This document shows positions 1 through 38,794 of a stretch of DNA of 38,794 bases, in pieces. Source of the stretch: a virus. Each line of letters starts with the position of its first letter. The first letter of the stretch is position 1. The notes under the pieces are model-generated. The model saw only the letters and a list, made by a program, of their open reading frames with translations. It had not been told where the DNA came from and did not search any database. The DNA lies in the IMG/VR virus record IMGVR_UViG_3300046506_000125, positions 1 to 38,794 of that record, one strand, 5' to 3'. The position numbers were made by a program, and so were the translations under genes.

Positions 1-1
1 T

Positions 2-127
2 GACTCAATCTTCTCCTATGCCGACAAGCTACAGATGAACCACGACTTCATTCTGTACGCATGGCTGGAATTCAAACGCCGTTACGCTGAAGACGATTCG
101 AAGAAATACAAGGACTGGCGCGCAACG
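2..127 (+). repeat. Terminal overlap, left copy
   Basis: Identical over 126 bases to 38669-38794. Base 1 (T) differs from the matching base 38668 (C). It is best explained as the overlap of a circular assembly or a circularly permuted genome. Confidence 0.97.
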
Positions 128-244
128 TTCCGCAATGCTGTGCGCGAGAACTGGTTCAAGTTGTGGTTTATCGCTGATGACGGTAGCTGCGGTCTGACGA
201 CGCGTGGCAAGCAGGTTCAACGAGAACATTCGGAGGGAGCATGA
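2..244 (+). CDS. O-like replication protein, C-terminal part (5' partial)
   Basis: This is the C-terminal end of the replication protein that starts at 38129 and is cut by the ends of the linear sequence. The reading frame continues exactly through the 126-base overlap, so joining 38129-38794 to 128-244 gives about 260 residues. The visible part is charged and helical (NHDFILYAWLEFKRR) and ends in a polar tail. The stop codon overlaps the helicase start (ATGA at 241), a typical coupling of a helicase recruiter with its helicase. The end of the protein probably contacts the helicase, as in phage O or DnaT-like proteins. That role is inferred from position. Confidence 0.85.
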   Translation, partial: DSIFSYADKLQMNHDFILYAWLEFKRRYAEDDSKKYKDWRATFRNAVRENWFKLWFIADDGSCGLTTRGKQVQREHSEGA

Positions 245-1611
245 ACAACGACATCCAACGCGCAATCCCGCAGAGCATCGAATCGGAACAAGCCGTCATC
301 GGCGCCCTGCTGATCGACAACGATGCCATCGACCGTATCGGCGACCTGCGCGCGGAGCACTTCTTTCGCGGCGATCACCGGGCGATCTTCCTCGAAGTCG
401 TCGCGCTGATTTCCAGCAGCGTCGGCGCAGACGTGATGACCGTTTTCGAGCGCTTGCAGGCAAAGGGCCGGGCGGCCGATGTCGGCGGGCTCGCGTATCT
501 GAACGACTTGGCGCAGAACACGCCGAGCAGCGCAAACGTCGCACGCTATGCGGAGATCGTGCGCGACCGGGCACAGAAGCGCGGCCTGTTGGCGCTGTCG
601 CACGAGATTCAGGATTCGGTAGGCACGACGCCCGACAGCGCCGCGGTGCTGATCGACCGCGCATCGACGAAGCTCGAAAAGCTCGGCGAGGCGATCGTAA
701 AGTCGGAGCCGGTGCGCGCGTCTGACTCGTTGCAGGAATATCTCGACTACCTCGAACATCAGATCGACGGCAAGATCAAGCCGGTTCCTACCGGCCTGAC
801 GGATCTCGATCGCAAGCTCGGCGGCGGCTTCTATGGTGGCGATCTGGTGATCGTCGCGGCGCGCCCGTCGATGGGTAAGACCGCATTCTCCCTGACGATC
901 TCTGCCAACGTCGCGCAGACGGCGCCCGTCCTGTTCCTGTCAATGGAAATGAAGAACGTTCAGCTTCAGCAGCGTTTAGTTTCGGCGATGGGCGGTATCC
1001 CGATGGGCCAGTTGCGCGACCCGGCGAAGCTCGACAACGAGCAATGGCAGCGAGTCACGCACGCCGGCCAGCGGATCAACGAGCTGCACCTGTACCTTGA
1101 CGACCAGCCGAATCTGACGCTGCTCGAAGTGCGCAACAAGGCGCGCGCGATCAAGCGTAAGCATGGGCTCTCGATGCTCGTCGTCGACTATCTCGGGCTG
1201 ATGGCGACTGGCGACGAGGAACGGCGCGACCTTCAGATCGGCGCGCTGACCAAGGGGCTCAAGAATCTGGCGAAGGAACTGGATATTCCGATCGTCCTGC
1301 TCTCGCAGCTCTCGCGCAAGTGCGAGGAACGCCCGAACAAGCGCCCTCTCTCGTCCGACCTGAAGGACTCCGGCGACATCGAAGCCGACGCAGATACGAT
1401 CCTGTTCCTCTACCGCGACGAGGTATACAACCCGGATTCGATGGACAAGGGCGTCTGTGAGGTGATCTGCACGAAGCAAAGGCAGGGCGAAACGGGCGTC
1501 GTCGGCCTCGCGTTTATCGGCGAACAGACCCGTTTCGCGGACCTTGCAAATGAACGCTCATTCGGAGCGCGACCTGACGTGAAACGCCCGAAATTCGGGG
1601 GTCTGGACTGA
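241..1611 (+). CDS. dnaB: DnaB-type replicative DNA helicase
   Basis: This 456-aa hexameric helicase should unwind the fork during phage replication. The N-terminal DnaB domain covers about residues 8-110 (IESEQAVIGALL near residue 12). The RecA-like ATPase domain carries the Walker A motif ARPSMGKT at 207-214, Walker B LVVDY at 313-317 and the typical LSQLSRKCEER segment near 356. Length and domain order match bacterial and phage DnaB. The ATG follows GGAGG and overlaps the stop of the O-like protein, so the two are translationally coupled. A phage that carries its own helicase does not need to capture the host DnaB. Family assignment is very secure. Confidence 0.97.
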   Translation: MNNDIQRAIPQSIESEQAVIGALLIDNDAIDRIGDLRAEHFFRGDHRAIFLEVVALISSSVGADVMTVFERLQAKGRAADVGGLAYLNDLAQNTPSSANVARYAEIVRDRAQKRGLLALSHEIQDSVGTTPDSAAVLIDRASTKLEKLGEAIVKSEPVRASDSLQEYLDYLEHQIDGKIKPVPTGLTDLDRKLGGGFYGGDLVIVAARPSMGKTAFSLTISANVAQTAPVLFLSMEMKNVQLQQRLVSAMGGIPMGQLRDPAKLDNEQWQRVTHAGQRINELHLYLDDQPNLTLLEVRNKARAIKRKHGLSMLVVDYLGLMATGDEERRDLQIGALTKGLKNLAKELDIPIVLLSQLSRKCEERPNKRPLSSDLKDSGDIEADADTILFLYRDEVYNPDSMDKGVCEVICTKQRQGETGVVGLAFIGEQTRFADLANERSFGARPDVKRPKFGGLD

Positions 1612-6674: not shown

Positions 6675-6676
6675 AA

Positions 6677-10128: not shown

Positions 10129-10607
10129 TCAATGACAAACGCGCGGCAGACGACGCGGGGCGGGAAGCGTTCGAGGCGTGGGAATCTTACTTGAAGGAGC
10201 AAAAGCAAATTATCGGCATGCCCGGACTGATGGCTCGGCCGTCTTTCTTGGCTGGCTACCGAGCCGCGCTGTCGTCCCGCGCCGATGGCGGAAAGGATTC
10301 GAGTGATGCGCACCGACTGAAGGTTGCAAATGACTGCTGCGATCGACTGATGCAAGCCTGCTCAGATGCGGGTTGCCATGACGGCGTTCGCATGGATGAC
10401 TGGATTCGGGCGAATGTGCGAGCCGATGGCGGCAAGGATTCGAGCGATGCGCGTGATGCGGAGCGGTATCGGCGAATCAGGCTTGGGCTGTCCGATGTGC
10501 ACGGCGATGTATATGCGATGGTATTTGCTGGCGATGGAGACTATCCGGAAGACGGCGATGACTTGGATCGCATCGTGGACGCCGCCATTGCCAGGGAGAA
10601 AAAATGA
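10125..10607 (+). CDS. Repeat-sharing hypothetical protein A, 160 aa
   Basis: A GTG start at 10125 overlaps the previous stop (GTGA) behind GGAGCG. The protein begins as a helical domain (DAGREAFEAWESYLKEQKQ) and then carries two copies of ADGGKDSSDA, the second followed by RDAERYRRIR. The same block is found in the next two genes at DNA level. The C-terminus is acidic with DRIVDAAIAREKK. This mosaic type is common in Burkholderia and Pseudomonas phages. The function is unknown. Confidence 0.7.
   Translation: MINDKRAADDAGREAFEAWESYLKEQKQIIGMPGLMARPSFLAGYRAALSSRADGGKDSSDAHRLKVANDCCDRLMQACSDAGCHDGVRMDDWIRANVRADGGKDSSDARDAERYRRIRLGLSDVHGDVYAMVFAGDGDYPEDGDDLDRIVDAAIAREKK
10422..10472 (+). repeat. 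51-bp repeat, copy 1 (ADGGKDSSDARDAERYR block)
   Basis: This 51-base stretch differs at a single base from 10730-10780 in the next gene. A shorter, more diverged copy (first 30 bases) lies at 10281-10310, and a stub (the first 17 bases) at 11035. All copies encode the same peptide frame, so they are likely sites of recombination between members of the gene family. Confidence 0.85.
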
Positions 10608-10924
10608 AAGATCGAATCGAAAGCCTGATCGGCGGTCTGGAGAATTGCATCGAGAACGCGAAACTTCGCGGCGATGCTTACGATGTTGGCTACATGAGTG
10701 CGATGGTCACTGAAGCCCGCGCCCTTCTAGCCGATGGCGGCAAGGATTCGAGCGATGCGCGGGATGCGGAGCGGTATCGGTGGTTGCGCGACCAGAATGC
10801 GAATTCTTCCGGCGCATTCGCCGTCATAGAGGACGACGGCGGTTTTTCAAGTTGGGATGCATGTTGGGTCGGCGAGGAATTGGACGACGCCATCGACGCC
10901 GCCATTGCAGGAGAGAAGAAATGA
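10604..10924 (+). CDS. Repeat-sharing hypothetical protein B, 106 aa
   Basis: This protein starts with a helical region (MKDRIESLIGGLENCIENAK and RGDAYDVGYMSAMV), continues with the shared ADGGKDSSDARDAERYRWLR block and ends in DDAIDAAIAGEKK, the same tail as protein A. It looks like a differently assembled member of the same family. The ATG overlaps the previous stop. Confidence 0.7.
   Translation: MKDRIESLIGGLENCIENAKLRGDAYDVGYMSAMVTEARALLADGGKDSSDARDAERYRWLRDQNANSSGAFAVIEDDGGFSSWDACWVGEELDDAIDAAIAGEKK
10730..10780 (+). repeat. 51-bp repeat, copy 2
   Basis: Second copy of the 51-base block described at 10422-10472, with one base difference (CGG for CGT). It is read in the same frame in its own gene. 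Confidence 0.85.
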
Positions 10925-11700
10925 CTGCACGCGAAATCATCAGCAATCTAGTGCTCGCTCTCACTGCGCGCCAGAAAGGGAACGTCGCCCGCGATGAAGG
11001 CGCGTATATCGATGAAGCCCGGACCTTCTGGCTTGCCGATGGCGGCAAGGGTGAGGCGGTGGCGTGGCAATGGAGAGACGAAGTGACACAGAACTGGCAT
11101 ACGCAAGCGCACAAACCGAACTTTGCGGATAGCACGCCGGTTCGCCCGCTCTACACCGCCCCGCAAGCCGAGTGCGCACCGCGCGAGGCGAACGAATCCG
11201 CATATCAGCGCGGCTATCTCGACGGTATGGCGAAAGGGAAGCATGACGCGCAGATCGACGCTGCCGAGTGCGCACCGCGTGAGGCGCAGCCGGATGCAGA
11301 CTATCTCAATTGGGTTTCAAAGTTCTTAAGCGCCGCACAGGCCGAAGAAGTGCGCGGAATTGCAAAACGCATCGCCGCCCCTACGCCTGAGCGTGCGGAC
11401 GCCGACACAGCGGGGGCGAAGCGGTTCAAGCGCTACGACTGGAACGGGCAAGAGAACGAGTACGGCGCACTGGTTTTCTTCGCCGATGTGCTTGAGGCGC
11501 TTTCAATTGTTGATGAAATCGCAGCGGGCGCGAGTCAGGAGCATGCGGACGCCGGGAAGGATGCGGCGCTGACAGATGAGCAACTTAAGGCGCTATCCGA
11601 ATTCATATTCCGCAACATGGGCAGTCCGAGTGATTGGACGGGATTCGACTTTAACGGAGCGCGCCGCGCAATCCTAGCCGCGAACAAGGAGCCGAAGTAA
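10921..11700 (+). CDS. Repeat-sharing hypothetical protein C, 259 aa
   Basis: The largest of the mosaic group. It has an N-terminal helical part ending in a shortened ADGGKGEA block, then GEAVAWQWRDEV and PVRPLYTAPQAE, a module common in phage proteins. ESAYQRGYLDGMAKGKHDAQ near residue 92 is nearly identical to part of the protein at 35921. The AECAPREA tag occurs twice. The C-terminus holds LTDEQLKALSEFIFRNMG. The architecture suggests shuffled modules, and the function is unknown. Confidence 0.7.
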   Translation: MTAREIISNLVLALTARQKGNVARDEGAYIDEARTFWLADGGKGEAVAWQWRDEVTQNWHTQAHKPNFADSTPVRPLYTAPQAECAPREANESAYQRGYLDGMAKGKHDAQIDAAECAPREAQPDADYLNWVSKFLSAAQAEEVRGIAKRIAAPTPERADADTAGAKRFKRYDWNGQENEYGALVFFADVLEALSIVDEIAAGASQEHADAGKDAALTDEQLKALSEFIFRNMGSPSDWTGFDFNGARRAILAANKEPK

Positions 11701-12210: not shown

Positions 12211-12245
12211 CAAGGAAGGAACCAAGGAAGGTTGGAACCTTGGTT
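12211..12245 (+). repeat. AAGGAAGGAACCAAGG repeat, outer copy
   Basis: Contains CAAGGAAGGAACCAAGGAAG followed by an inverted AACCTTGGTT, so AACCAAGG and CCTTGGTT can pair across ten bases. The same GGAACCAAGGAAGG-type words lie before parA (12466-12487) and inside the next gene (13178-13232). The cluster around parA suggests sites for its DNA-binding partner. Confidence 0.6.
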
Positions 12246-12264
12246 ATCCGAGGACGGTGCACTG

Positions 12265-12414
12265 TAAAAATGAAAAAGCCCGCTCGAAAGCGGGCTTTAA
12301 GAAGAATGCTGGGCCTCTTGGGTATGTCCACCTTTGGCGGAGGCCAGCTCATAAAAACATGAGTTGGCGGCATGGGCGCTACCTCCTGAGAGGACACCAG
12401 CGTATGCGCTCCAC
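12265..12414 (-). ncRNA. Putative structured antisense RNA (possibly C4-like)
   Basis: On the minus strand a perfect -10 TATAAT (12426-12421) is followed by about 115 bases of strongly pairing sequence and then a good terminator (12298-12275 with a T-rich tail). Pairing elements include CCTC/GAGG near 12385, CTCAT/ATGAG around a T-rich loop at 12350-12362, and GGCCTC/GAGGCC at 12312-12344. No supported protein covers it. C4-type antisense RNAs control immunity in P1-like phage-plasmids, and the overall appearance reminds me of them, but this is unverified. No clear -35 is visible. Confidence 0.4.
12275..12298 (-). terminator. Rho-independent terminator (best on minus strand)
   Basis: AAAGCCCGCT (12275-12284) pairs perfectly with AGCGGGCTTT (12289-12298) around a CGAA loop. 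Read on the minus strand it is followed by TTCATTTTT. On the plus strand only three T residues follow, so it may stop the early operon weakly and the antisense transcript strongly. Confidence 0.7.
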
Positions 12415-12429
12415 GAAGAAATTATACCG

Positions 12430-12484
12430 CCAAGTTTCCTTGATTGGTTTATTCTTTCCAAGATAACAAGGAAGGAAGGAACCA
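12430..12484 (+). promoter_or_regulatory. parA promoter/operator region
   Basis: CAAGTTTCCTTGATTGG is a diverged inverted form of the CCAAGGAA words, and AACAAGGAAGGAAGGAACCA at 12466 repeats them directly and doubles as the ribosome site of parA. TTGATT (12440-12445) with GATAAC sixteen bases later is a weak promoter candidate. The layout suggests autoregulation of the partition cassette. Confidence 0.45.
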
Positions 12485-13129
12485 ATGAAAACCCTCGTGT
12501 TTTCCTGCCTGAAAGGCGGGAGCGGAAAGACGACGCACAGCGCACACGTCGCCGTGGCGCTTGAACTGATGGGGAAGGGGCCAGTCGTCACGATGGATCT
12601 CGACCCGCAAGGATCGTTTTCCGCTTGGTGGAATGACCGGCAGGCCGCGACGCCAGCGTTCGCCAAGGTCAAGGATGCGAAGCACCTACCAGCGAAGCAT
12701 GCCGAGCTGGCAAGCGCCGGGTTCGAGTGGTGCATCATCGACACACCGCCGCAGGACCATGAGATCAACCGCACGGCGATCCGGCTGGCCGATCTCGTCA
12801 TTATTCCGGCCAAGCATTCGCCGCACGACATCCGGGCCGCAGAAAGCACGGTCGATCTGTGCGAGCAGGAGGGGAAGAAGTTCTATTTTCTGCTCAACGA
12901 GACGAACGGGAAGGCCGTTACGCTATCGGCAACGCGAAAGCTGGCGTCGATGGGGCCGGTTATCCCGCACGCCGTGCCGAAGCTGAACGGCTATTGGGAG
13001 TCGATGATCCCCGGCCTGACGTTTCAGGAAACGAGCCAAGGGACCGGCGCAATCATCATCGACAATGTTGCGAGCTTCCTTGTTGGACTGTTCGATAAGC
13101 CAGCGAAGAAGGAGAAAGCCCATGTCTAA
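12485..13129 (+). CDS. parA: ParA-type partition ATPase
   Basis: This 214-aa member of the ParA/MinD ATPase family carries the deviant Walker A KGGSGKTT at residues 10-17 with the signature lysine, DLDPQGS at 38-44 and IIDTPPQ near 82-88. It has no N-terminal HTH extension, so it is a short, type Ib-like ParA. Such ATPases segregate low-copy plasmids by moving centromere-bound partner complexes over the nucleoid. In a phage this implies that the prophage lives as a plasmid. A small DNA-binding-like gene overlaps its end, and similar repeats flank it, as expected for a partition cassette. Confidence 0.93.
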   Translation: MKTLVFSCLKGGSGKTTHSAHVAVALELMGKGPVVTMDLDPQGSFSAWWNDRQAATPAFAKVKDAKHLPAKHAELASAGFEWCIIDTPPQDHEINRTAIRLADLVIIPAKHSPHDIRAAESTVDLCEQEGKKFYFLLNETNGKAVTLSATRKLASMGPVIPHAVPKLNGYWESMIPGLTFQETSQGTGAIIIDNVASFLVGLFDKPAKKEKAHV

Positions 13130-13442
13130 GGCGACGCTCGATATGGTTGTGACGAAGAAAGGGGCTGCGGCGCCGGCAACCTTGGAAGGAAGCAACCAAG
13201 GAACCAAGGAACCAAGGAAGGAAGCAACCAAGCAAGAACCTGAGAGAGAGGCGAGAAAACGCCCGTGGGACGGCCAAGACGATGTGATAAAGGCCAATTA
13301 TGAAGTGCCGCGCCGGATTCAGACGAAACTCCACACCCTCAAGACATGGGGGAGGATCGAAAACCTAAAGGGGTTCGTGTCTGAGGCGCTTGAGAAGGCG
13401 CTAGACAGGGAGATTGCGGCAGCAGAGAAGGAGGGGTACTGA
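13122..13442 (+). CDS. Putative ParB-like partition partner (RHH-like)
   Basis: This 106-aa protein overlaps the end of parA by eight bases and has AAGGAG upstream. Residues about 15-50 are charged and disordered, which is typical of arms that stimulate ParA. The C-terminal half (NYEVPRRIQTKLHTLKTWGR and GFVSEALEKALDREIAAAEK) resembles a ribbon-helix-helix fold, a strand followed by two helices. Type Ib partition systems use such small dimers to bind the centromere and the operator. Function is inferred from order and size. The repeat cluster 13178-13232 lies inside its coding sequence. Confidence 0.65.
   Translation: MSKATLDMVVTKKGAAAPATLEGSNQGTKEPRKEATKQEPEREARKRPWDGQDDVIKANYEVPRRIQTKLHTLKTWGRIENLKGFVSEALEKALDREIAAAEKEGY
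13178..13232 (+). repeat. AAGGAAGCAACCAAG / GGAACCAAGG repeats inside the partner gene
   Basis: GGAAGGAAGCAACCAAG occurs at 13184-13200 and again at 13216-13232, with GAACCAAGGAACCAAG between. The 32-base spacing is not a multiple of three, so the two copies are read in different frames. This points to selection on DNA, for example as a protein-binding site. Confidence 0.7.
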
Positions 13443-13443
13443 A

Positions 13444-13692
13444 ATGATTCCACGCATTAAGCATGTGCCGAACGATCAGCAGCTAAACGCCATGATCCAA
13501 GACGGAATGATCGCAAAAATGGGCGTGGCGACGTTCGGCGTGTTCTGCTACCTGAGCACTAAACAGTTTTTTGGCGAGCCGCCTCCCTCTCTAGCAACAA
13601 TGTCCAAGCAGTTGGGCATGAGCGAAAAGCTCGTCCAGAGTGCCCTCAACTACCTGGTCGAACTGGGTTACGCCGAGATTGCGGGGGCATAG
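13444..13692 (+). CDS. Small HTH protein, 82 aa
   Basis: The first half is VPNDQQLNAMIQDGMIAKMG; the second half is a winged-helix-like segment: LATMSKQLGMSEKLVQSALN and LVELGYAEIAG. Such short wHTH proteins accompany plasmid or phage replication genes. It ends at a TAGTG overlap with the next gene, so they are translated together. It may regulate or assist the initiator. Confidence 0.7.
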   Translation: MIPRIKHVPNDQQLNAMIQDGMIAKMGVATFGVFCYLSTKQFFGEPPPSLATMSKQLGMSEKLVQSALNYLVELGYAEIAGA

Positions 13693-14297
13693 TGAAGTCA
13701 ACAATCGACACCAGCTACACCACGGCGCAGCAGGATCTATTCGCGTCCGGACTGGCCGCAACCATCGGCAGCAACGCCTTCATGCTATGGACGGCCATCA
13801 AGCAGCACGCGGACAACGACACCGGCGAGGCTGACCCAGGAATGCGCCGGCTGGCAGCAATGACCGGGATGAGCCTGTCAACTGTCTCCGAGAGCGTGAA
13901 GATACTGGTCGCGAATAAACTGCTGCGCGTGCTTGAGAAAGGGAAGGGGAAGGCGGGAACCCGCTACATAGCGCGTGAACGCATGGATATACGGGTCGGG
14001 AAGCGGATTCTATGTACGGTCGTTATCGATTACGTGCCGTGGCACATGGGCGAGAAGATCCAGGCTATTGGGGATGCCGTCAACAAGCAGGGGCGTGTCG
14101 ACCCTGAAGCGCTTGCCGAATGCGAGATCATCCCTGGAGAGGGTTTCCGATGGGATCCAGAGCGAGGCGTTATGGCCGGATCACTGCCGCCAGATGATCT
14201 TCGACCGGCGCCCGAACCAATCGACGAGGAAAACGCCCATCCGGCCGTCCGCCGATTGATGGACACTCGAAGGCGCATCGAAGGATCGCGCGGCTGA
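13692..14297 (+). CDS. Candidate plasmid-type replication initiator (wHTH)
   Basis: A 201-aa protein from a GTG that overlaps the previous stop. Residues about 20-80 form a winged helix (NAFMLWTAIKQHADNDTGEA, RRLAAMTGMSLSTVSESVKI, VANKLLRVLEKGKGK), followed by a strand-rich part (GTRYIARERMDIRVGKRILC). The C-terminus is acidic, then basic. It ends 40 bases before an array of repeats containing a DnaA box, the usual position of a plasmid Rep gene. The fold resembles small Rep proteins such as RepL, but no family is certain; a regulator is the alternative. Confidence 0.6.
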   Translation: MKSTIDTSYTTAQQDLFASGLAATIGSNAFMLWTAIKQHADNDTGEADPGMRRLAAMTGMSLSTVSESVKILVANKLLRVLEKGKGKAGTRYIARERMDIRVGKRILCTVVIDYVPWHMGEKIQAIGDAVNKQGRVDPEALAECEIIPGEGFRWDPERGVMAGSLPPDDLRPAPEPIDEENAHPAVRRLMDTRRRIEGSRG

Positions 14298-14300
14298 GAT

Positions 14301-14480
14301 GCTTTTATAAGATATAGATAGTTCTGTTCGGCTAGAGTAACGCTACGGGGGTTTAGCGTTCGGCTGGCGTAACGCTAGCATTTTCTAGCGTTACTCAGAG
14401 CGAACGCTTAAAAGTTATCCACAGGCTTAGCGTTACTGTAGCCGAACGCTAAATGACTCCCTAGCGTTCCCATAGCGAAC
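14301..14480 (+). other. Candidate plasmid replication origin: alternating iterons plus DnaA box
   Basis: At least eight copies of TAGCGTTA or its reverse lie here: TAACGCTA 14338 and 14370, TTAGCGTT 14353, CTAGCGTTA 14385, GAACGCTTA 14402, TTAGCGTTA 14427, GAACGCTAA 14444 and CTAGCGTTC 14461, with a weaker one at 14473. Orientation alternates strictly. A consensus DnaA box TTATCCACA sits at 14415-14423 between two of them. An A+T-rich stretch (14301-14321) precedes the array. There is no gene here. This is the layout of an iteron-regulated plasmid origin, directly behind the candidate initiator. Confidence 0.75.
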
Positions 14481-14526
14481 ACCCATCAGAAAGTTCGATC
14501 ACTTCTATTATGTCAAGTCGAAGAAA

Positions 14527-14546
14527 GCCGGCCACCCAACGCCGGC
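14527..14546 (-). terminator. Weak terminator at the end of the late genes
   Basis: Two GCCGGC palindromes (14527-14532 and 14541-14546) can pair with an eight-base loop. On the minus strand the second arm is followed by TTTCTTC. The hairpin lies just after the last late gene and would stop late transcription before the origin. It is weak. Confidence 0.4.
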
Positions 14547-14553
14547 CACGCAA

Positions 14554-14745
14554 TCAGCCGAATTGACCATCAAGCAGCAGGCGCGCATTCATCCCGTCAA
14601 TTTCCGTCCAATGCTTTTCATGGTAATTTTTGCAGTACGGGCACTTCTGCCAGTGAATCTCTGCGACCTTCCCGCATTCGTCGCACTTGCGCAATGCGTT
14701 CGAGAATGCCGCGGGATCGCGCTTTTTGTAGGTTATGGCTCCCAT
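14554..14745 (-). CDS. Zinc-ribbon-like protein, 63 aa
   Basis: This has a KCDECGK ... KCPYCKNYHEKHW arrangement: two CxxC pairs 14-15 residues apart, consistent with a small zinc ribbon. It begins MGAITYKKRDPAAFSNALR. It is the last gene of the minus-strand late operon, after the lysis genes, and may regulate or be a cargo gene. The function is unknown. Confidence 0.75.
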   Translation of the reverse strand: MGAITYKKRDPAAFSNALRKCDECGKVAEIHWQKCPYCKNYHEKHWTEIDGMNARLLLDGQFG

Positions 14746-14804: not shown

Positions 14805-15347
14805 CTATCCCCGGCTGTCTGCTTGCACACGCGGATCGGCCTGTGCTTTCCCGCGAAAGAACGAGGCCACGCCGAGCACCGCGCCGATTGTCAGCGTCAT
14901 ATCTGCCGACAGAGTGACCGGCTGCACGTGGAAAAGCGGCAGGATGAACAGTGAGGCGACGTAGAGCCCGAACATAAAGCCGATGAATGGGCGCCACGTG
15001 TACGACGGCCAATGATCTGCCTTCGATTCCGCCTGCATCGTATCGTTGACGGCGCCGATAGCGTCAGAACCGGCCTTAATCGACGCCTGCTCGGTTGCCG
15101 CGCTGATCTGCGCCATCTGAACATTGAAGTCGTTATCGGCCTTCTGAAGCGCCGCAATCGCGTCCGGCGAGAGCCCGGCTTGAATCGCCTGCGTCACCTG
15201 GTCGGAAGTGCCGTCCTGATGCCCGAGCACGGCGCCACTCACCGCACGCAACGCGGCGCCAGCCACCATGCCGGCCGGCCCGCCGACGACAGACAGCGCC
15301 GTCGCCAGAGTCGGCGCGACGCCGCCAAGAATCGATTTCCAGTCCAT
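14805..15347 (-). CDS. Holin-like membrane protein (3-TM type)
   Basis: This 180-aa protein starts with a glycine- and alanine-rich hydrophobic region (ILGGVAPTLATALSVVGGPA and GMVAGAALRAVSGAVLG), has a soluble helical middle, and ends with two clear membrane segments (FIGFMFGLYVASLFILPLF and ADMTLTIGAVLGVASFF). It matches the three-transmembrane holin family first described in gene-transfer agents. Holins permeabilise the inner membrane at lysis. It directly follows the lysozyme gene (one base), so the lysis role is well supported. Confidence 0.82.
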   Translation of the reverse strand: MDWKSILGGVAPTLATALSVVGGPAGMVAGAALRAVSGAVLGHQDGTSDQVTQAIQAGLSPDAIAALQKADNDFNVQMAQISAATEQASIKAGSDAIGAVNDTMQAESKADHWPSYTWRPFIGFMFGLYVASLFILPLFHVQPVTLSADMTLTIGAVLGVASFFRGKAQADPRVQADSRG

Positions 15348-15348
15348 G

Positions 15349-15807
15349 TCAGGCCCCCTTGCGCATCATATCGGCGAGGCGTTGAGCCCTGCCCTTTACT
15401 TGCGTTGCCCAAGCGCTCGCGAGCATCCCATCGGCTGCGGCGTCGTACTTTCCCTGGCGCATCGCAACGAGCGTGTTGCGGAACCCAAGCAACTTCGTGA
15501 TCCCCAAATTGAACGCCATGTTAGCGAGCGCGCGCTGTCGCACGTCATTGAGATCCGTCCACCACGGCAGGTTTCGATCGAGATCGCGAAACACGTCCTC
15601 AAGATCGTCGTCGAGCAGAGAATTGACTTGCGCGTCGTTGAGCGGACATTTCCAGCCGGCCGGCAGCGGATGCGCCTGAAGGTTGTGTCCGACGCCGACC
15701 GTATCGATGCCCTTCGTGTCCTTGTAGACCGAATAACGGACACCCTCGTCGCGGCGCAGCTCGGCGATCAGCTTCTGAAGGTTTTCGTTATTCATCGACA
15801 TTTCCAT
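15349..15807 (-). CDS. Phage lysozyme (endolysin, GH24)
   Basis: A T4-type lysozyme, about 152 aa, that cleaves peptidoglycan. The catalytic triad pattern E-x8-D-x5-T is intact: Glu21 in RDEG, Asp30 in VYKD and Thr36 in DTVGVGH. There is no N-terminal signal or anchor segment, so it depends on a holin for release. In-frame ATGs at 15801 and 15795 are close; AAAGGG at 15808-15813 fits 15801 slightly better than 15807. The gene overlaps the small holin at its 5' end and is followed by the 3-TM holin. Confidence 0.93.
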   Translation of the reverse strand: MEMSMNNENLQKLIAELRRDEGVRYSVYKDTKGIDTVGVGHNLQAHPLPAGWKCPLNDAQVNSLLDDDLEDVFRDLDRNLPWWTDLNDVRQRALANMAFNLGITKLLGFRNTLVAMRQGKYDAAADGMLASAWATQVKGRAQRLADMMRKGA

Positions 15808-18027: not shown

Positions 18028-18046
18028 GCGTGCCTCAATAAAAAAA

Positions 18047-18063
18047 CCCCGCACTAGGCGGGG
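18047..18063 (-). terminator. Terminator between ejection and tailspike genes
   Basis: CCCCGC (18047-18052), loop ACTAG, GCGGGG (18058-18063), followed on the minus strand by seven T residues. The same CCCGC-ACTAG-GCGGG hairpin appears inside the portal gene at 29204. It ends transcription of the ejection block. Confidence 0.8.
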
Positions 18064-18076
18064 TAGAGGAATAAAA

Positions 18077-27196: not shown

Positions 27197-28405
27197 TCAG
27201 CGGACGATACGGCAGGCAAGTTCCGGGTACACGGCAGCCCATCCATAAAGGACGTCAATTCTACAAGGAACCGTATCCGTACCGATCGCGTACTGGCGCG
27301 AGATACGCATCGAAATGCCCTTGTGCATGCGACGCGCGCCCCATGCGCCGTACTGCGACACGTCTTCCAAGTCGGCGGTCACGAGCGTGAACGCATCCTT
27401 GTGATACGCGAGGTTCGCGCTGTACTGCGTCGACGGCGCAACGTCCCACGTCACGACAGCAGCGTTCGCCGGGCCAGCCGAAACCGTCTGATACTGCTGG
27501 TTGCTTGCCGCGGTGTTGATCGCCGGGAAGATCGACAGCGTTGCGTTGCCCGAGCCGTCAGCCGTTGCCGGTGCGGTCACAGTGAACTTGCGCAGCACGC
27601 CGGTCGACTGGCGGTTCTGCGGGTTCACGGCGTAGACGCCGGCGATCTGGAACGTATCGCCCTTCGCGATGGTTGCAGCAGCGCCAAGGCCGGTCACGGT
27701 CAGCGTCGAGCCAGTCTGACCAGCGCCGGAAACGGTGCCGTTCGTGCGCGTGCCGGACGTGAACACGTTGATGTTCTGGTCCATGCCGATGTCGAAGCCG
27801 AGCGACGAAGCCTGGAAGATGCCGGATTCGTACTGAGCGCCGATCGAGCGCGACGGGTTGAACAGGCCGGATGCAGCTTTGACCATCGACGCGTTCGTTG
27901 CCGGGTCCCACACAACGGTGCGGCTACCATCGCGCGGCGTTGCTTCGTTGTCGAGCACGCTGCCAGCGGAAAGAAGCGTCGCGATGTCGTTCGGGACGGT
28001 GCCAACCGTGCCCACGTTGTTCGCGACGTTGGCAGCGAGGCCAAGACCGTCGAAATCGATCTTGTTGGCGATCGTCGCCATTGCCGGCTTGATGTAGCGA
28101 TCAGCGAACTCGTCGACAACCAGCGTCAGTTCTTGCGAGCTGAACGTGAAATCGACGTGGAACTGAGTCGTCAGGCTGATCGGCAGCGACGATTCGTTCA
28201 CGTTTTCGATGTTCAGGTTCGGGCCGGTCGTACCGACAAAGCGGTTCGGCTTGCGCGCGTTGACGGTCGATCCGATCTTCGCGCCGCTGACGGCGAATTC
28301 CTTGCTGTATTCGCGGTTTGCACGCGAGGAGAACGTCAGATTGTTCTCCAAGATCATCAGCGATTCGTCAAGGATCTTGGTAGGGGTGAGAAGCGTATTT
28401 GCCAT
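27197..28405 (-). CDS. Major capsid protein (P22 coat family)
   Basis: This 402-aa protein begins ANTLLTPTKILDESLMILEN and NREYSKEFAVSGAKIGSTVN, the signature start of P22-type coat proteins (helix, then the S(T)V(N).RKP segment). An insertion domain near residues 220-300 (TVSGAGQTGSTLTVTGLG) corresponds to the I-domain position. The C-terminal part has SQYGAWGARRMHKGISMRIS. Size is close to P22 gp5 (430 aa). It is downstream of a scaffold and a portal in the canonical order. Confidence 0.95.
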   Translation of the reverse strand: MANTLLTPTKILDESLMILENNLTFSSRANREYSKEFAVSGAKIGSTVNARKPNRFVGTTGPNLNIENVNESSLPISLTTQFHVDFTFSSQELTLVVDEFADRYIKPAMATIANKIDFDGLGLAANVANNVGTVGTVPNDIATLLSAGSVLDNEATPRDGSRTVVWDPATNASMVKAASGLFNPSRSIGAQYESGIFQASSLGFDIGMDQNINVFTSGTRTNGTVSGAGQTGSTLTVTGLGAAATIAKGDTFQIAGVYAVNPQNRQSTGVLRKFTVTAPATADGSGNATLSIFPAINTAASNQQYQTVSAGPANAAVVTWDVAPSTQYSANLAYHKDAFTLVTADLEDVSQYGAWGARRMHKGISMRISRQYAIGTDTVPCRIDVLYGWAAVYPELACRIVR

Positions 28406-29177: not shown

Positions 29178-31307
29178 TTATTGCTGTGGAGCGGGCAAAG
29201 AAAAACCCGCACTAGGCGGGTTCGGTTGTTGCGGCGTTTGTTGCATCGGATCGGGCGGTGGAGCGCCGCCTTCTGGCGCACCGGTCTGCATCATCTGCAT
29301 GACGACTTGCGTTGCGACGTGCGCGACGACTTCAGGATCGAGCGGCTGGCCGAGAGCTTGTAGGCGCTTCGTCTCCGCGTCATAGGCTTTGATGTTCGTT
29401 TCCTGCTGATCCTTGCCCTGCTTCGCCTCTTGAAGCTGCTGCGTCAAGTGCTCGATCATCTGGCCCATGTGCTGCATCTTCTGCGTGGCGTCCTGCATTT
29501 CAGGCGTCGGGCCTTCGCCCAAGATAGCCGGTGAGATCGTGCGATGCAGACGTTCGGCAACCTCGTCAGCCATCGGGAAGTCAGCCGCCTTGAACAGCAA
29601 GTCGCCGGCCACCTTCATCAGCTCCTGATCCTGCGACATGATCTGCGTGAGCGCGTTGAATGCTTCCTGACGGCGCGTCTCGTAGTTCGGGCCAACTTCG
29701 ACCGTCACGTCGTAACGCCCGATGCCAGGGTTGTAGATCAGTTGCACGTCTTTCAGGTGATCGCGCTCACTCTCGGGCGGCGCCGGCTGGCCGTCAGGCG
29801 TTCCGACCGGATGCGCTTGATCCGGATCGAACTTCGCGAACGTCTCCGTCCCGTCCTCGCCGATGATGCGAATCACGCGCTGCGTGTCGTAGATCTTCGG
29901 GATCAGGTCGATCAGCACGCGGCCTGTGTAGCGGATTGCGCGCGCAACGTTGTCGATGAAGTGATACGTTGCGCGATCACCCTGCCGTTGCCGTGCCTGA
30001 ATCGCGACGCCCGCCTGCGCGTTCGATTGCTGGCCGAACTGTTCCTGATACTGGCCGGATGCCATCATCAGTTCCTGCTGCGCTGTCTGCATGCCTTGCA
30101 GGTACGCAGAAGCGCCTACAGGCGGCTGCTCGCGCGTAGGGCGATCAATGGGAGAGCCGTCCTCTTTCAAGCCGTTGTAGGGCAGATACGGCAGGTTGTC
30201 TTTGTTCGCGTTCGCCCATTCGGATTCGAATCCTTCAAACGCCTCAATCGGGCCGACGAATGGCGTTTTCGTCTGAAGCGCAATGTACTCAACCTGTGCG
30301 CTGCTCATGTAGTTGTACATGCGCTGCGCGTCTTTCATGCTGCGCGTGTGACCCTTGCGCTCGATCTTGCCGTCGATCACGATCTCTTCGCCAATCACGC
30401 GCACGATCGGGATATAGCGTCCCGCCCACGGCTTTTCGTCAATGATCGTGTCGCCAGCGATCAGATACCACGTGATTTGCGGCTGGCTCACCGGGCGCTT
30501 CTGCACGCTCGGATCGCTCTCGATGACCTTGCGCTCTTCCGGGTCTTGGACCTCGGACAGCATCATCGGGCCGTTGACCGGATGATTGATCAGCGTGTCG
30601 GTCTTGGTCGTCTTGCGGAAGTATTCGCACACGCGAATCTTGTCCTTCGACAGCCAGGCGCTACCGGTCGTGTCGTCACCGAACGTCACGCTGCGCGCTT
30701 CCTCGCCCGGGTAGGTCGCCTCAAACTCCGTCTTCGTCATTTCTTCAAAGACGAAACCGTACTTGGCGTCTGAGCCATCAGCCGATTCGATGTCGCAGTC
30801 GAGATAGACCGTCAGCGGGTTTTTGACGCGGCGCAGGAAGATTTCCTGGTCGAACGAGCCGTCATGCGCGTACTCGCACACCACGCGCCAGTAGCCGAGC
30901 CCCGCCTGCACAGCAAACTCGGTCGCAGTGTCGTACACAATCTCGGCGTGCGAGTTGTATTCGATGTGGCGAACGATGCCGTCGAGAATCTTGGCAATCT
31001 CAATGTCAGCCTCGCCATCGACCGGCAGAGTCTTCACGCTCGGCTTGTTCTGCTTCGCGTCGTTGATGATCTGCAGATTGTGCTGGCGCGTCTTGTTGAT
31101 CGTCAGGCATGGCCGCTGGTCGCCGTCCCGCGCGTTGCGGATCTGGTCGGGCCACTGCCAGCCGTTATCGGCGTCGCCATTGGCAAACTTCAGGTCTTCA
31201 ACGAAGCGCTTACGGAAGTCGCTTTCGGCTTCCTCGCAGCGTGCGAACCGCTCTTTGGCCTCAGCAACAATCTTCGCTTTCGGATCTTCTTTCGGCTTTC
31301 GCGCCAT
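29178..31307 (-). CDS. Portal protein (P22 gp1-like)
   Basis: This 709-aa protein forms the dodecameric DNA channel. Conserved features include CLTINKTRQHNLQIINDAKQ, near residues 80-100, TEFAVQAGLGYWRVVCEY, and KDAQRMYNYMSSAQVEYIAL. The C-terminus is a helical region (LAQQLQEAKQGKDQQETNIK-like) and a proline-rich end. P22 gp1 is 725 aa. The ATG at 31307 is chosen over one at 31334 because that would overlap the terminase stop. The last 15 codons contain a terminator hairpin (29204-29222). Confidence 0.96.
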   Translation of the reverse strand: MARKPKEDPKAKIVAEAKERFARCEEAESDFRKRFVEDLKFANGDADNGWQWPDQIRNARDGDQRPCLTINKTRQHNLQIINDAKQNKPSVKTLPVDGEADIEIAKILDGIVRHIEYNSHAEIVYDTATEFAVQAGLGYWRVVCEYAHDGSFDQEIFLRRVKNPLTVYLDCDIESADGSDAKYGFVFEEMTKTEFEATYPGEEARSVTFGDDTTGSAWLSKDKIRVCEYFRKTTKTDTLINHPVNGPMMLSEVQDPEERKVIESDPSVQKRPVSQPQITWYLIAGDTIIDEKPWAGRYIPIVRVIGEEIVIDGKIERKGHTRSMKDAQRMYNYMSSAQVEYIALQTKTPFVGPIEAFEGFESEWANANKDNLPYLPYNGLKEDGSPIDRPTREQPPVGASAYLQGMQTAQQELMMASGQYQEQFGQQSNAQAGVAIQARQRQGDRATYHFIDNVARAIRYTGRVLIDLIPKIYDTQRVIRIIGEDGTETFAKFDPDQAHPVGTPDGQPAPPESERDHLKDVQLIYNPGIGRYDVTVEVGPNYETRRQEAFNALTQIMSQDQELMKVAGDLLFKAADFPMADEVAERLHRTISPAILGEGPTPEMQDATQKMQHMGQMIEHLTQQLQEAKQGKDQQETNIKAYDAETKRLQALGQPLDPEVVAHVATQVVMQMMQTGAPEGGAPPPDPMQQTPQQPNPPSAGFSLPAPQQ
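29204..29222 (-). terminator. Terminator inside the 3' end of the portal gene
   Basis: AACCCGC (29204-29210), loop ACTAG, GCGGGTT (29216-29222) lies within the portal coding sequence, about 25 bases before its stop, and is followed on the minus strand by TTTTTCTTT. The hairpin core and ACTAG loop are the same as at 18047. It encodes the odd C-terminal peptide NPPSAGFSL. Confidence 0.75.
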
Positions 31308-31308
31308 A

Positions 31309-32571
31309 TCATCCCATCCAGGCGCCACCACCAATCACGGTGCGGCGAATCGTCGGTTTCGGTTGTGGTTTCGGAGCCTTGCCAGCGCGTCGTGCGCCCT
31401 CACAGGCGTACCGCAGCGCGTCGATGACGTGGTTATCCTTGTCTTCGAGCATCGGCAGAATGGCGCCCGTCAGCGGGTCTTCCTTGTACTTGTAGAGCGT
31501 CAGTTCGTCGATCAGATGCTTGCAGCGTGGGTGAACAATGATGTCGAACGACTTGAGGAATTCAACGCCCTCTTCCAGCGATTTCGCGCCCTTGATGGCC
31601 GGTCGAATCTTCGGGAAGCCGTTTTTCTGCATGTGGCTGATCGTCTCCGGTCGCGCAGAGTCAGCCGTGATCGGCCACTTCTCTGCGTCAGGAACGCCCA
31701 TGAACAGTTCAGGCAGGTTCACGATCTCGCATCCGACCATGTACGCCTCGTAATCGACATACAGACGATTGCCGTCTATATCGCATCGAATCAGCACGGA
31801 CGGATCGACCGAGAAGCCCCAGTCCGCACCCAACCGATGAATGGTGCCGCCCGGCCGTTCGAATTCTTCAATGCGCCAGTTCTTGAATACGCGCGCCTCG
31901 CTGTTCTGCTGATACTGACCGAGCCATACGTGCGCGTACTTGTCCGGGTCGCGCTTCTTATCGAACTCCATTTCGTCGCGCAGCGTCGTTTCTTCGAACC
32001 AGGGGTTATCCATGTAGTTCGCTTCGACTACGATCGACCCTGGCGGAAGTTCAGGGCCGCGCATCAGAACATCGACAGGATCAGTGGCAAGGCGAGGATT
32101 CCAGCCCAACCATATCTGCGATCCCGGCTTACGGATGGTCGGGCGAAGCATCGTAAGGCTGCTATCGCTGGCGTTCTGCGCTTCCTCAAACCACGCGCGA
32201 TCGAATCCTTCGAGCGACTTGATCGAGTCGGCTGTATGGTTCTGCATGCCTTCAAAGATCGTCACGCCACCTAGACGCGACGTGATGCGCTTATCCTGAA
32301 CGTCGAAATAGTCGCCAGCGTTGAACGACACGATTTTCGACTCAAGCAGCTTCTTCACGGAGAACTGGAGCGATTTCAGCGTCTCGCGCAGGCACACAAC
32401 ATCGAGCTTTTCCCGAATATTTTCCTCTAACCACAACTCGCCGAAGAAATGCGACTTGCCAGAGCCTCGCCCGCCATGCGCAGCTTTGTAGCGAGCTGGT
32501 CGACCATCCGGCGCGGTATCGGCCAACAGCGGCAGAAACGCACGCGGCGTGTCAATAACCAGTTCATCCAC
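31309..32571 (-). CDS. Terminase large subunit
   Basis: This 420-aa packaging motor has an ATPase and a nuclease. Walker A is GGRGSGKS at residues 33-40 and Walker B/catalytic RAWFEEA lies near 122. The motor section continues with IWLGWNPRLATDPVDVL. The nuclease domain has GADWGFSVDPSVLI with the first catalytic Asp, and DKDNHVIDALRYACEG near the end with the last. I chose GTG 32571, six bases after AAGGA; TTG 32577 directly overlaps the small subunit's stop and has no room for a ribosome site. Confidence 0.95.
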   Translation of the reverse strand: MDELVIDTPRAFLPLLADTAPDGRPARYKAAHGGRGSGKSHFFGELWLEENIREKLDVVCLRETLKSLQFSVKKLLESKIVSFNAGDYFDVQDKRITSRLGGVTIFEGMQNHTADSIKSLEGFDRAWFEEAQNASDSSLTMLRPTIRKPGSQIWLGWNPRLATDPVDVLMRGPELPPGSIVVEANYMDNPWFEETTLRDEMEFDKKRDPDKYAHVWLGQYQQNSEARVFKNWRIEEFERPGGTIHRLGADWGFSVDPSVLIRCDIDGNRLYVDYEAYMVGCEIVNLPELFMGVPDAEKWPITADSARPETISHMQKNGFPKIRPAIKGAKSLEEGVEFLKSFDIIVHPRCKHLIDELTLYKYKEDPLTGAILPMLEDKDNHVIDALRYACEGARRAGKAPKPQPKPTIRRTVIGGGAWMG

Positions 32572-32573
32572 GC

Positions 32574-32858
32574 TCAATCCTTTTGCGGGTCAACGATGCG
32601 GCGCACGATCTGGCTGAACTGCATCGGCCCACCATCGGGACCAGCCATCTCTACCGATTGCGTCGCCTTGCCATATCCGCGATCTAGGATCTCTTTCGCA
32701 GCAGCAATGCGCGCTGAATGGTTCTCACTCGTCGTCAAGATCGTTGCCAGTTCACGAATCGCGTCTTCGCCGTACTCTTGGGCGAGCGCGCGAACGTCAG
32801 CCGTGATCTTGTTCGGCGTACCCTTCACGCGGCCGCCGGTTTTCACGCCTTTAGCCAT
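32574..32858 (-). CDS. Terminase small subunit
   Basis: This 94-aa protein begins KTGGRVKGTPNKITADVRAL, a motif seen in small terminase subunits and other phage DNA-binding proteins, followed by a helical core (ATILTTSENHSARIAAAKEI) and a LDRGYGKATQSVEM end. It should bind the packaging site and recruit the large subunit. It is the first gene of the late operon and overlaps the large subunit. It is shorter than P22 gp3. Confidence 0.88.
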   Translation of the reverse strand: MAKGVKTGGRVKGTPNKITADVRALAQEYGEDAIRELATILTTSENHSARIAAAKEILDRGYGKATQSVEMAGPDGGPMQFSQIVRRIVDPQKD

Positions 32859-37467: not shown

Positions 37468-37896
37468 TCACTTCCTGCGCTTACCCTGCTCGACCAGCGC
37501 TTCTAGTGGCTTGTTCGTGACCAACGCGCTCATGACCTTCAGCATGGCCGAGCGGGTCGCTTCAGGCGCCTGGTTGTAGAGCGCCATTACAGACTCGCTG
37601 AACGCCTTCGCGTCGTCGTCTTTGGCAAGCATGTCTTGCGAGTGGTCAGAGTCGAGCCAGCCGCGCGGCAGGTTCAGCGCGTCCTCGATGCGATCCCGGA
37701 TGTTCGGGCCGGCCAGCTTGTGACCGCTCATGATCTGGCGGAAGTTGATAACGCTGATCCCCACCCTTTCCGCGAACAGCTTGAGCATGCCCCGTTCGGG
37801 GTGCTCTGGATACTGCGCCCGTATCTCGTCCTTGAATTGCTCCAACAAAAATTTCAGGTTCCGCAGACGAACCTGATCCACTGTTTCGATTGTCAC
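37468..37896 (-). CDS. Repressor-like HTH transcription regulator, 142 aa
   Basis: The N-terminal half holds a lambda-repressor-type helix-turn-helix: MLKLFAERVGISVINFRQIM, then SGHKLAGPNIRDRIEDALNL and PRGWLDSD. The C-terminal half is short and helical, without the LexA/CI serine-lysine protease site. The gene points away from the early genes and shares their control region, the classic place for an immunity repressor. GTG 37896 is preferred, with AAAGGGA six to seven bases upstream; TTG 37902 directly abuts that site. It may bind the repeated ACGGCATCGTTTC words. Confidence 0.82.
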   Translation of the reverse strand: MTIETVDQVRLRNLKFLLEQFKDEIRAQYPEHPERGMLKLFAERVGISVINFRQIMSGHKLAGPNIRDRIEDALNLPRGWLDSDHSQDMLAKDDDAKAFSESVMALYNQAPEATRSAMLKVMSALVTNKPLEALVEQGKRRK

Positions 37897-37933
37897 TGTC
37901 AATCCCTTTGGGTGAGTGTGCGCCGTGAGCCCG

Positions 37934-38128: not shown

Positions 38129-38794
38129 ATGGCAACCCTGTTATTCGACGAGCCGCCGCTTGTCGTATCCCCTACATTAGCCTGCGCAATCGGCCTGCAG
38201 GAAGCGATCGTCCTGCAACAGATGCACTACTGGCTGTCGCACAGCAAGTTCGTCCACGATGACCGTCATTGGGTCTACAACACCTACGAGGATTGGGCGA
38301 AGCAGTTCCCGTTCTGGAAGCCGGAAACCATCCGCAAGATCATCGCCAAGCTGCGCGGTGACGGGCTGATCGACATCGCCAAGCTGTCGGATAACCCTTG
38401 GGACAAGACCAACTATTACGCGATCAACTATGCGGTTTTGGCTACGCATGGCGCCCGCATCGATGCGGAAAAATCCACCGCATCAGAGCGGAAATCTGCA
38501 CCGGTTCAGATGCGGAAAAATCCACCGCATCACTGTACAGAGAATACAGAGACTACTACAGAGAATACAGAGCGCGCTCCGCGCCGTCGCGCTGCGCGCG
38601 CCTCCCTCCCCTTGGCTTCCTGGCTGGAAGCATGCAAAACGAGCGGAGAGAAGGCTATCCCTGAAGACGACTCAATCTTCTCCTATGCCGACAAGCTACA
38701 GATGAACCACGACTTCATTCTGTACGCATGGCTGGAATTCAAACGCCGTTACGCTGAAGACGATTCGAAGAAATACAAGGACTGGCGCGCAACG
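38129..38794 (+). CDS. O-like replication initiator, N-terminal part (3' partial)
   Basis: The first 222 residues of a protein that continues at 128-244. Residues 1-110 form a winged-helix DNA-binding domain typical of phage O-type proteins: LACAIGLQEAIVLQQMHYWL, VYNTYEDWAKQFPFWKPETI, KLRGDGLIDIAKLSDNPWDK. A low-complexity linker follows (TENTETTTENTERAPRRRAA), coded by direct repeats, and then the helical C-terminal domain. By analogy with lambda O it should bind the repeats in its own gene and load the helicase. The ATG follows GAGGAAAG. Confidence 0.88.
   Translation, partial: MATLLFDEPPLVVSPTLACAIGLQEAIVLQQMHYWLSHSKFVHDDRHWVYNTYEDWAKQFPFWKPETIRKIIAKLRGDGLIDIAKLSDNPWDKTNYYAINYAVLATHGARIDAEKSTASERKSAPVQMRKNPPHHCTENTETTTENTERAPRRRAARASLPLASWLEACKTSGEKAIPEDDSIFSYADKLQMNHDFILYAWLEFKRRYAEDDSKKYKDWRAT
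38462..38572 (+). repeat. Iteron array in the initiator gene: candidate lytic origin
   Basis: GATGCGG-N9-CCGCATCA occurs identically at 38462-38485 and 38509-38532 (24 bases each), with a degenerate copy exactly between (38486-38508). Each perfect copy is itself an inverted repeat. The copies are read in different frames, so DNA is what is conserved. Two copies of TACAGAGAATACAGAG (38536-38551, 38557-38572) follow. This is the position and layout of the lambda origin inside gene O. Confidence 0.75.
38669..38794 (+). repeat. Terminal overlap, right copy
   Basis: Right copy of the 126-base overlap with bases 2-127. Joining the two gives one unbroken replication gene and a unit of about 38,667 bp. 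Confidence 0.97.

Follow-up and report, generated by a model that had tools for sequence, protein, structure and literature searches.

The block and its genomic setting

Between 12.2 and 14.5 kb of the window, by which we mean the whole analysed stretch of 38,794 nucleotides, a short parA gene, an overlapping gene for a ribbon-helix-helix (RHH)-like protein and a winged-helix gene, here called rep, follow one another on the same strand and are accompanied by several groups of repeats and a DnaA box (Table 1).

Table 1. Features of the block and of the surrounding phage genome
Feature	Position	Strand	Remarks
End repeat	1..127		duplicates 38668-38794, sole mismatch at base 1; circular map 38,667 nt
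DnaB-like helicase	241..1611	+	lytic replication
AAGGAAGG/GGAACC repeats	12212..12251		precede parA; conserved in close relatives
Terminator-like hairpin	12275..12298		separates early operon from cassette
Second repeat group, AAGGAAGGAACC	12458..12484		directly adjoins parA start codon
parA	12485..13129	+	ParF-like partition ATPase, 214 aa, short, without N-terminal HTH
parB/parG-like partner gene	13122..13442	+	106 aa, disordered N-terminus and RHH-like C-terminus; start ATG 13122
AAGGAACC repeat array	13176..13236		within 5' part of RHH gene
Winged-helix ORF, 82 aa	13444..13692	+	HTH_36 28 bits; homologous to N-terminus of alternative Rep (R2) of G002/G037
rep (R1)	13692..14297	+	winged helix, 201 aa; proposed to bind the iterons and initiate replication
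Plasmid origin candidate	14326..14480		five palindromic iterons, two one way and three opposite
Iterons 1 to 5	14326-14345, 14352-14377, 14386-14408, 14428-14453, 14462-14480		
DnaA box TTATCCACA	14415..14423	+	perfect; between iterons 3 and 4
ATTATGTCAA element	14507..14516	+	3' of rep in 6/15 loci examined
Lysis genes	14805..15807	-	holin/spanin-like 14805-15347, lysozyme 15349-15807; converge on cassette
P22-type coat protein	27197..28405	-	PF11651 E=4.5e-50
P22-type portal protein	29178..31334	-	PF16510 E=1.5e-171
Terminase large subunit (TerL)	31309..32577	-	
Repressor-like protein	37468..37902	-	phrog_5736 E=7e-7, phrog_12107 E=5e-5; divergent from replication genes
DnaD-like/O-like replication gene	38129..38794	+	crosses circular junction; 260 aa total

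The window is an essentially complete genome that maps circularly at 38,667 bp; we consider it complete or nearly so because of the 127-nt end repeat and because the DnaD-like ORF continues across the joined ends. Headful packaging of a circularly permuted genome would give a circular map as well, and this equal expectation counts against reading the circle as a plasmid. The virion and packaging gene set is complete, and the portal and coat proteins, both far over their Pfam cut-offs, establish the P22-type virion that a preliminary description of the sequence had claimed. Proteins resembling the tail accessory proteins gp10 (phrog_578, E=1e-114) and gp4 (P22_Tail-4, 22.5 bits, cut-off 21) are also encoded; Pfam Phage_stabilise stayed under its cut-off in the window. 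A DNA-level search found no near relative among GenBank phages. The repressor-like gene noted earlier is likewise real and is retained in the par phages G002, G013 and G019. The O/DnaD-like gene, with its internal repeats (38455-38532), probably marks the lytic origin.

Partition genes and their repeats

The ParA protein matches the PHROG profile of ParA-like partition proteins (E=7e-27) and Pfam AAA_31 (49.8 bits, cut-off 27), and carries a deviant Walker A motif, KGGSGKTT. Among solved structures it comes closest to plasmid ParA and ParF, and comparison with plasmid proteins gave 45-49% identity at best, to Xanthomonas plasmid ParA. A scan of the contigs of 84,980 species genomes revealed no ParA relative and hence no host genome bearing the cassette; with no extrachromosomal copy in sight, this counts against the plasmid reading. 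The RHH-like gene shares 8 nt with parA. Its product has no sequence-family match; the structural model shows a disordered N-terminus followed by two helices of a ribbon-helix-helix, and a structure search listed ParD-type RHH proteins as best, though only weakly (E>1). A short ParA with an RHH partner bearing a disordered tail recalls ParF/ParG of TP228 and comparable plasmid systems with a short ParA, from which the window differs by the lack of a sequence family for the partner and by the limited identity of its ParA to plasmid proteins. Operon position, conservation and the RHH-like model lead us to regard this product as the partition partner of ParA, for which there are no binding data.

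The AAGGAA/GGAACC repeats reported near parA also exceed chance; of the 34 AAGGAA/TTCCTT sites in the genome, 13 fall in 12212-13218. Without binding data, the repeats upstream of parA remain a candidate operator or centromere and the array inside the RHH gene a candidate centromere.

Rep and its iterons

The iterons and DnaA box proposed from the sequence have strong support, in the perfect box at 14415 and in the repeat density at the iterons (23 in 160 nt, compared with a mean of 1.1 and a maximum of 9 in 2000 shuffles). The candidate initiator, Rep, scores only as HTH_36 (26.3 bits, cut-off 25). It passes no initiator profile, its matches to PHROG replication-initiation families are weak, and a structure search returned only generic winged helices, the model resembling MarR/PerR-type regulators; this counts against the plasmid reading. 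Rep had no match in a plasmid collection and one weak match in phages. The preceding 82-aa ORF is probably a remnant or a regulator.

In all 15 loci examined, rep is followed by its own palindromic repeat array, and in 14 of them by a DnaA box (about 0.004 expected per locus). The repeats differ with the Rep type: those of R1 contain AACGC, those of R2 CCAGCGGC, and others AGGTCTCA or GGTGACAC. Rep and iterons have been swapped as a unit, independently of parA (L018, G002). These patterns bear on the alternative that survives best, unlikely as we judge it, in which the winged-helix gene merely autoregulates the par operon with the palindromes as operators, and the circle replicates from the O/DnaD-type origin while ParA adds stability. 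Lambda dv is a model for a circle replicating from a phage origin, a second phage replication gene with repeats is indeed present, and the HTH_36 score and regulator-like fold of Rep would suit such a role. However, the repeats lie 3' of the gene rather than at its promoter, and neither the recurrent DnaA boxes nor the joint exchange of Rep and iterons favours it.

The block at the integrase site

The missing tyrosine or serine integrase of the preliminary description was not recovered by closer search, as PF00589 and PF00239 were negative across all six frames of the window. PF00589 alone was not trusted for absence, since it had overlooked a divergent tyrosine integrase in the related phage G036 that was recognised by reading its ORF; the window was therefore additionally searched with the integrases of five relatives, again without a match. 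It also contains no tRNA gene.

The isolated relative Xanthomonas phage PBR31, with the gene order lysis-(deacetylase)-int-xis-early, carries int-xis at the position of the cassette. PBR31 and a Pandoraea eparura prophage share with the window the P22-like virion module as well as the order and orientation of the genes (TerL 74-78% identical; coat 46% to PBR31 and 84% to the prophage), but both possess an integrase, in PBR31 together with xis. Among the P22-I phages, eight have the cassette, ten an integrase and none both. In a tree of 21 phages, those with par/rep group together in a single clade, apart from those with an integrase; this requires a single change rather than repeated integrase-to-par swaps within the P22-I clade, and none of 2000 shuffles gave as few. 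We hold it to be likely that the block between 12.2 and 14.5 kb serves plasmid maintenance and has displaced the integrase in a temperate podovirus of the P22 type.

The block in other phages

Beyond what had been noted for the window, we found the cassette in a second P22-like lineage, two N4-like genomes and four T7-like genomes, with the parA-RHH-rep order preserved across these virion types. G002, a second circularly mapping genome, has the layout of the window, but its Rep and its iterons are not those of the window. The cultured N4-like Schitoviridae phage Acinetobacter vB_IME_Ab2712 also has parA-RHH-rep followed by palindromic repeats, and its Rep is homologous (38% identical to that of G022); it differs in its virion, in a ParA only 35-37% identical and in lacking a consensus DnaA box by the repeats. 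Its record is unannotated and states no lifestyle. Among GenBank phages, 11 records with a related coat protein or TerL contained no member of the ParA family, and only EBPR podovirus 1 had a match to the Rep model (52 residues).

Two plasmids whose records include a P22-like portal (A. seifertii pAS51-4 and E. coli pB1.H1.1.c7) were rejected as earlier P22-type phage-plasmids; they look like excised prophage circles because pAS51-4 has an integrase after the lysozyme gene and, as far as the available stretches of the records go, no par gene is annotated in either. An Arsenophonus plasmid with a related TerL is of another kind, using ParM/RepL.

N4-like and T7-like phages are usually regarded as lytic, and a prophage state is not established for the carriers among them, which counts against the plasmid reading. 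The cassette might accordingly act while the phage grows lytically, where it would position or copy phage DNA or regulate genes, without plasmid prophages ever being formed; ParA-family proteins do have other cargo. We think this improbable: in the P22-type clade the cassette replaces the integrase and never stands beside one, the repressor-like gene is kept, and phage replication genes are already there. Some T7-like carriers encode a tyrosine recombinase of 262-303 aa near parA, which would fit integration by another route, through host XerCD or homologous recombination, with the cassette as an accessory; given that neither recombinase family is represented in the window, which also lacks a tRNA gene, this is very doubtful. 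That a plasmid and a phage were fused during metagenome assembly is already contradicted by the many separate contigs (G002, G013, G016, G017, G022 and G037 among them) in which the same cassette is joined to virion genes, and can practically be dismissed.

Discussion

From the genes, repeats, position, conservation and lack of an integrase that we observed, the best reading is probably that a mobile partition-replication cassette keeps these podovirus prophages as low-copy circular plasmids. The phage-plasmid lifestyle suggested by the preliminary description is strengthened by the comparison, because the block lies at the integrase site of relatives, is present clade-wide, and has a rep with its own repeats and nearly always a DnaA box. 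The extrachromosomal state is still inferred, as is every biochemical step, and neither a host nor a copy number nor a function has been demonstrated. In the proposed mechanism, Rep would bind the palindromic iterons immediately downstream and, with host DnaA at its box, open the origin, so that the repressed prophage could replicate in theta mode at low copy number. For partition, the RHH protein may bind the AAGGAACC repeats around parA, repress the operon and form a centromere complex, so that the ParF-like ATPase could move copies apart. Lytic growth would rely on a distinct O/DnaD-DnaB origin close to the circular junction.

Prophages kept as plasmids have precedents. P1-type phage-plasmids have separate plasmid and lytic origins, an iteron-DnaA plasmid origin and a partition operon; the window resembles them in the partition operon and, as inferred from sequence alone, in the two origins. 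Cluster A mycobacteriophages such as RedRock and Miko carry parABS in place of an integrase and were shown by experiment to persist as low-copy extrachromosomal prophages (PMC7157519). They are similar in that one temperate group replaced its integration cassette by a partition system, a subset adding Rep, but they are actinobacterial siphoviruses, most without RepA and with origin repeats not identified (PMC7157519). The window belongs instead to P22-type podoviruses related to Proteobacteria prophages, with ParF/RHH partition and a Rep with iterons and DnaA boxes; a cluster A virion and an actinobacterial host do not apply to it, its TerL relatives being found in Pandoraea, Cupriavidus and Methylotenera. 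Well-defined phage-plasmid groups consist of sipho- or myophages with genomes of 55-111 kb (PMC11652158, Table 1), whereas the window, at 38.7 kb, is that of a P22-type podovirus whose small Rep differs from theirs. Group 10 of the glacial phage-plasmids comprises circular environmental phage genomes of 37-38 kb, some with ParA/ParB and one with an integrase; in the parts of that report available to us, it has toxin-antitoxin genes, its virion is not given as P22-like, and Rep or iterons are not reported (PMC4490671).

Whether a single mobile parA-RHH-rep-iteron cassette has made phage-plasmids of several unrelated podovirus lineages (N4-like, T7-like and two P22-type) is, in our view, evenly balanced. 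If so, some members of supposedly strictly lytic groups would exist as plasmid prophages or in a stable carrier state, and the cultured Ab2712 could serve as a test case. In P22-type phages that have a repressor-like gene alongside an O/DnaB-like replication module, our results show one such replacement fixed in a clade, after which Rep and ParA types were shuffled. Such phages could be sought in metagenomes with a marker set made up of ParA, RHH and this family of Rep proteins together with their iterons. The cassette in N4-like and T7-like phages allows phages deemed lytic for want of an integrase to be tested for plasmid persistence, and suggests that the rule "no integrase means virulent" misclassifies some phages.

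Results

The window (G000), one whole IMG/VR record, repeats its first 127 bases at its terminus with one mismatch (base 1), and the reading frame of a DnaD-like gene at the terminus runs on into the window start. This end repeat and the gene crossing the junction indicate that the genome maps as a circle of 38,667 nt and is complete or nearly so, and a missing gene is therefore informative. Late genes (terminase, portal, scaffold, coat, tail accessory, ejection proteins, tail spike and lysis) occupy the minus strand and early genes the plus strand; portal (E=1.5e-171) and coat (E=4.5e-50) match P22 families. The repeats inside the DnaD/O-like gene probably form a lambda-type lytic origin distinct from the plasmid origin. 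A similar repeat-density peak is seen at 37.3 kb in the related record G002.

Features of the window
Feature	Position	Strand	Remark
parA	12485-13129		
RHH (ribbon-helix-helix) partner gene, 106 aa	start 13122		8-nt overlap with parA
Winged-helix ORF, 82 aa	13444-13692		
rep, winged-helix protein, 201 aa	13692-14297		
Five palindromic iterons	14326-14480		3' of rep
DnaA box TTATCCACA	14415		in iteron region
CxxC zinc-ribbon-like protein, 63 aa	14554-14745	-	between origin and lysis genes
Repressor-like gene	37468-37902	-	divergent to DnaD/O-like gene and DnaB-like helicase
23-nt repeats	38455-38532		inside DnaD/O-like gene

The preliminary description had proposed a ParA gene with an overlapping small gene, repeats and an iteron/DnaA-box region, and all of these are present, parA through the iterons at 12485-14480, with an iteron density (23) far above the maximum of 9 in 2000 dinucleotide shuffles. 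ParA belongs to the short, ParF-like type. Its partner is modelled with a disordered tail and a pair of RHH-fold helices, and it weakly resembles ParD-type RHH proteins in structure. Repeats of the AAGGAACC type occur both upstream of parA and towards the 5' end of the partner gene, and close relatives retain them. The early operon is set off from the block by a terminator-like hairpin. The 82-aa ORF appears to be what remains of a Rep of the alternative type, R2. Of the first 23 records compared by tblastn, G017 alone matched the 63-aa CxxC protein.

None of the initiator profiles recognises Rep, so that position, repeats and co-variation are the basis for its assigned role. A Rep profile matched 17 of 17 par/rep-type records searched, and no integrase-type phage record at comparable strength. 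Palindromic repeats of their own follow rep in all 15 loci read, and a DnaA box (TT[AG]TCCACA, either strand) is present within 280 nt in 14 of them (chance about 0.004 per locus); these loci are related and hence not 15 independent trials. Iteron type tracks Rep type in the loci read: R1, the Rep type of the window, goes with AACGC-containing iterons, R2 (G002 and G037) with GCCGCT..CCAGCGGC iterons, and other Rep types with GGTCTC-type or GGTGTCACC-type iterons. The genes rep and parA are swapped separately from each other: locus L018 has a Rep 100% identical to that of the window and a ParA just 31% identical, and in G002 ParA is 97% identical and Rep is of another type.

The proposed lack of an integrase also held: no tyrosine or serine recombinase turned up when the window was searched in six frames, nor did the integrases of five relatives used as queries find one. 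In Xanthomonas phage PBR31, the nearest isolated relative (TerL 74.5%), the lysis genes give way to genes for a deacetylase, an integrase and an excisionase and then to the early genes, encoded opposite to the late genes; the window has lysis, iterons-rep-RHH-parA and early genes, with matching relative orientation. By gene order, the par-rep block occupies the integrase place of its relatives. The TerL-closest isolate genomes are from Pandoraea, Cupriavidus and Methylotenera (contigs of 198-311 kb), and the Pandoraea-type prophage record G041 has an integrase. The related phage G036 encodes a divergent tyrosine integrase (19603-20775, minus strand) that PF00589 does not detect, which is a caution for claims of integrase absence. 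By inspection, G002 (10526-11605), G022 (13487-14605), G037 (6509-7702) and G036 (18013-19131) encode acyltransferase-like membrane proteins, possibly host surface-modifying, in the interval that separates the lysis genes from the rep or integrase site.

In a tree of 21 phages that resemble one another in coat, gp4-like and gp10-like proteins, the eight par/rep phages (G000, G002, G013, G016, G017, G019, G022 and G037) form one clade, outside which lie all nine labelled integrase carriers. The labels require one change, 0 of 2000 label shuffles require as few, and no tree phage carries both systems. Contigs G016 and G017 stop before parA and were scored on RHH and rep. G036, a tenth integrase carrier, was labelled unknown because PF00589 misses its integrase. 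Three further phages stay unknown, among them G023 and G025, which stop right at the site. Since most tree records seemingly come from related metagenomes, the pattern represents one evolutionary event seen repeatedly rather than many independent events, and the par clade may reflect one sampled environment.

The cassette extends to other podoviruses. It is present in a second lineage of P22-like phages whose coat differs (G003-G006, G014, G015 and G021), and the parA-RHH DNA of the window is 91-93% identical to that of several contigs in this lineage, which points to recent exchange. ParA (74-82% identical), RHH (about 50%) and the Rep family of the window also occur in N4-like G009 (IMGVR 3300046794_000123, 78537 nt, 1,037-nt end repeat) and G053 (3300049460_000157, 74740 nt, locus L184), from different metagenomes, and in T7-like G010-G012; T7-like G018 shares the Rep family with a more distant ParA (32%). 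Both N4-like cassettes include iterons, and both genomes encode virion RNA polymerases of 3400-3600 aa (G009: 3616 aa, 2602 bits). The four T7-like carriers (loci L118-L128) have a single-subunit RNA polymerase (E<1e-93) and, in those scanned, a family A DNA polymerase and a T7-type primase-helicase. About 1 kb upstream of parA they encode a tyrosine recombinase of 262-303 aa, which may be an integrase or may resolve plasmid dimers. The N4- and T7-like evidence comprises two and four assemblies, respectively, and one cultured phage. A further record, G054 (IMGVR 3300046543_000128, 53952 nt, locus L189), encodes a ParA with 64% identity to the G011 ParA but no P22 coat, T7/N4 polymerase or window-type Rep.

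Discussion

The phage-plasmid groups that are well defined consist of sipho- or myophages (PMC11652158). Environmental phage-plasmids of 37-38 kb with ParA/ParB are described from glaciers (PMC4490671), and a large mining study catalogues phage-plasmid-like IMG/VR elements by the thousand (PMC13221032), among which the window record may be counted, undescribed. We found no description of P22-type, N4-like or T7-like phages with a parA-RHH-rep cassette in the literature searched, which left most subscription journals outside coverage.

The cultured phage is Acinetobacter phage vB_IME_Ab2712 (Schitoviridae; locus L192, OK149216.1 27141-35749, unannotated record). Its genes for ParA (35-37% identical), an RHH-like protein and a homologous Rep (38% identity with the G022 Rep, E=5e-32) are arranged as in the window, and GGTATCAGTCTGATACC-type repeats come after rep; no consensus DnaA box was found near those repeats. 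The 55-kb isolate plasmid RHOApg of Rhodovastum atsumiense (L167), with a 50% identical TerL, P22-family coat, ParA and ParB, is probably a phage-plasmid of a different type. Two circular "plasmid" records, A. seifertii pAS51-4 (L169), which has an integrase, and E. coli pB1.H1.1.c7 (L170), are genomes of P22-type phages; no par gene is annotated in the parts of them that were read, and both are probably excised prophages deposited as plasmids. The cassette was not found in isolate genomes, and the plasmid state was consequently never seen here.

The repressed prophage most likely exists as a circular plasmid at low copy number, an inference made without host, reads or experiment. While its sequence features are observed, each biochemical step of the following scheme is inferred. 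The iteron origin would be fired by Rep together with DnaA, and the AAGGAACC repeats would be the sites through which the RHH protein and ParA partition the copies, while the O/DnaD-DnaB module, which contains repeats of its own, would serve lytic growth.
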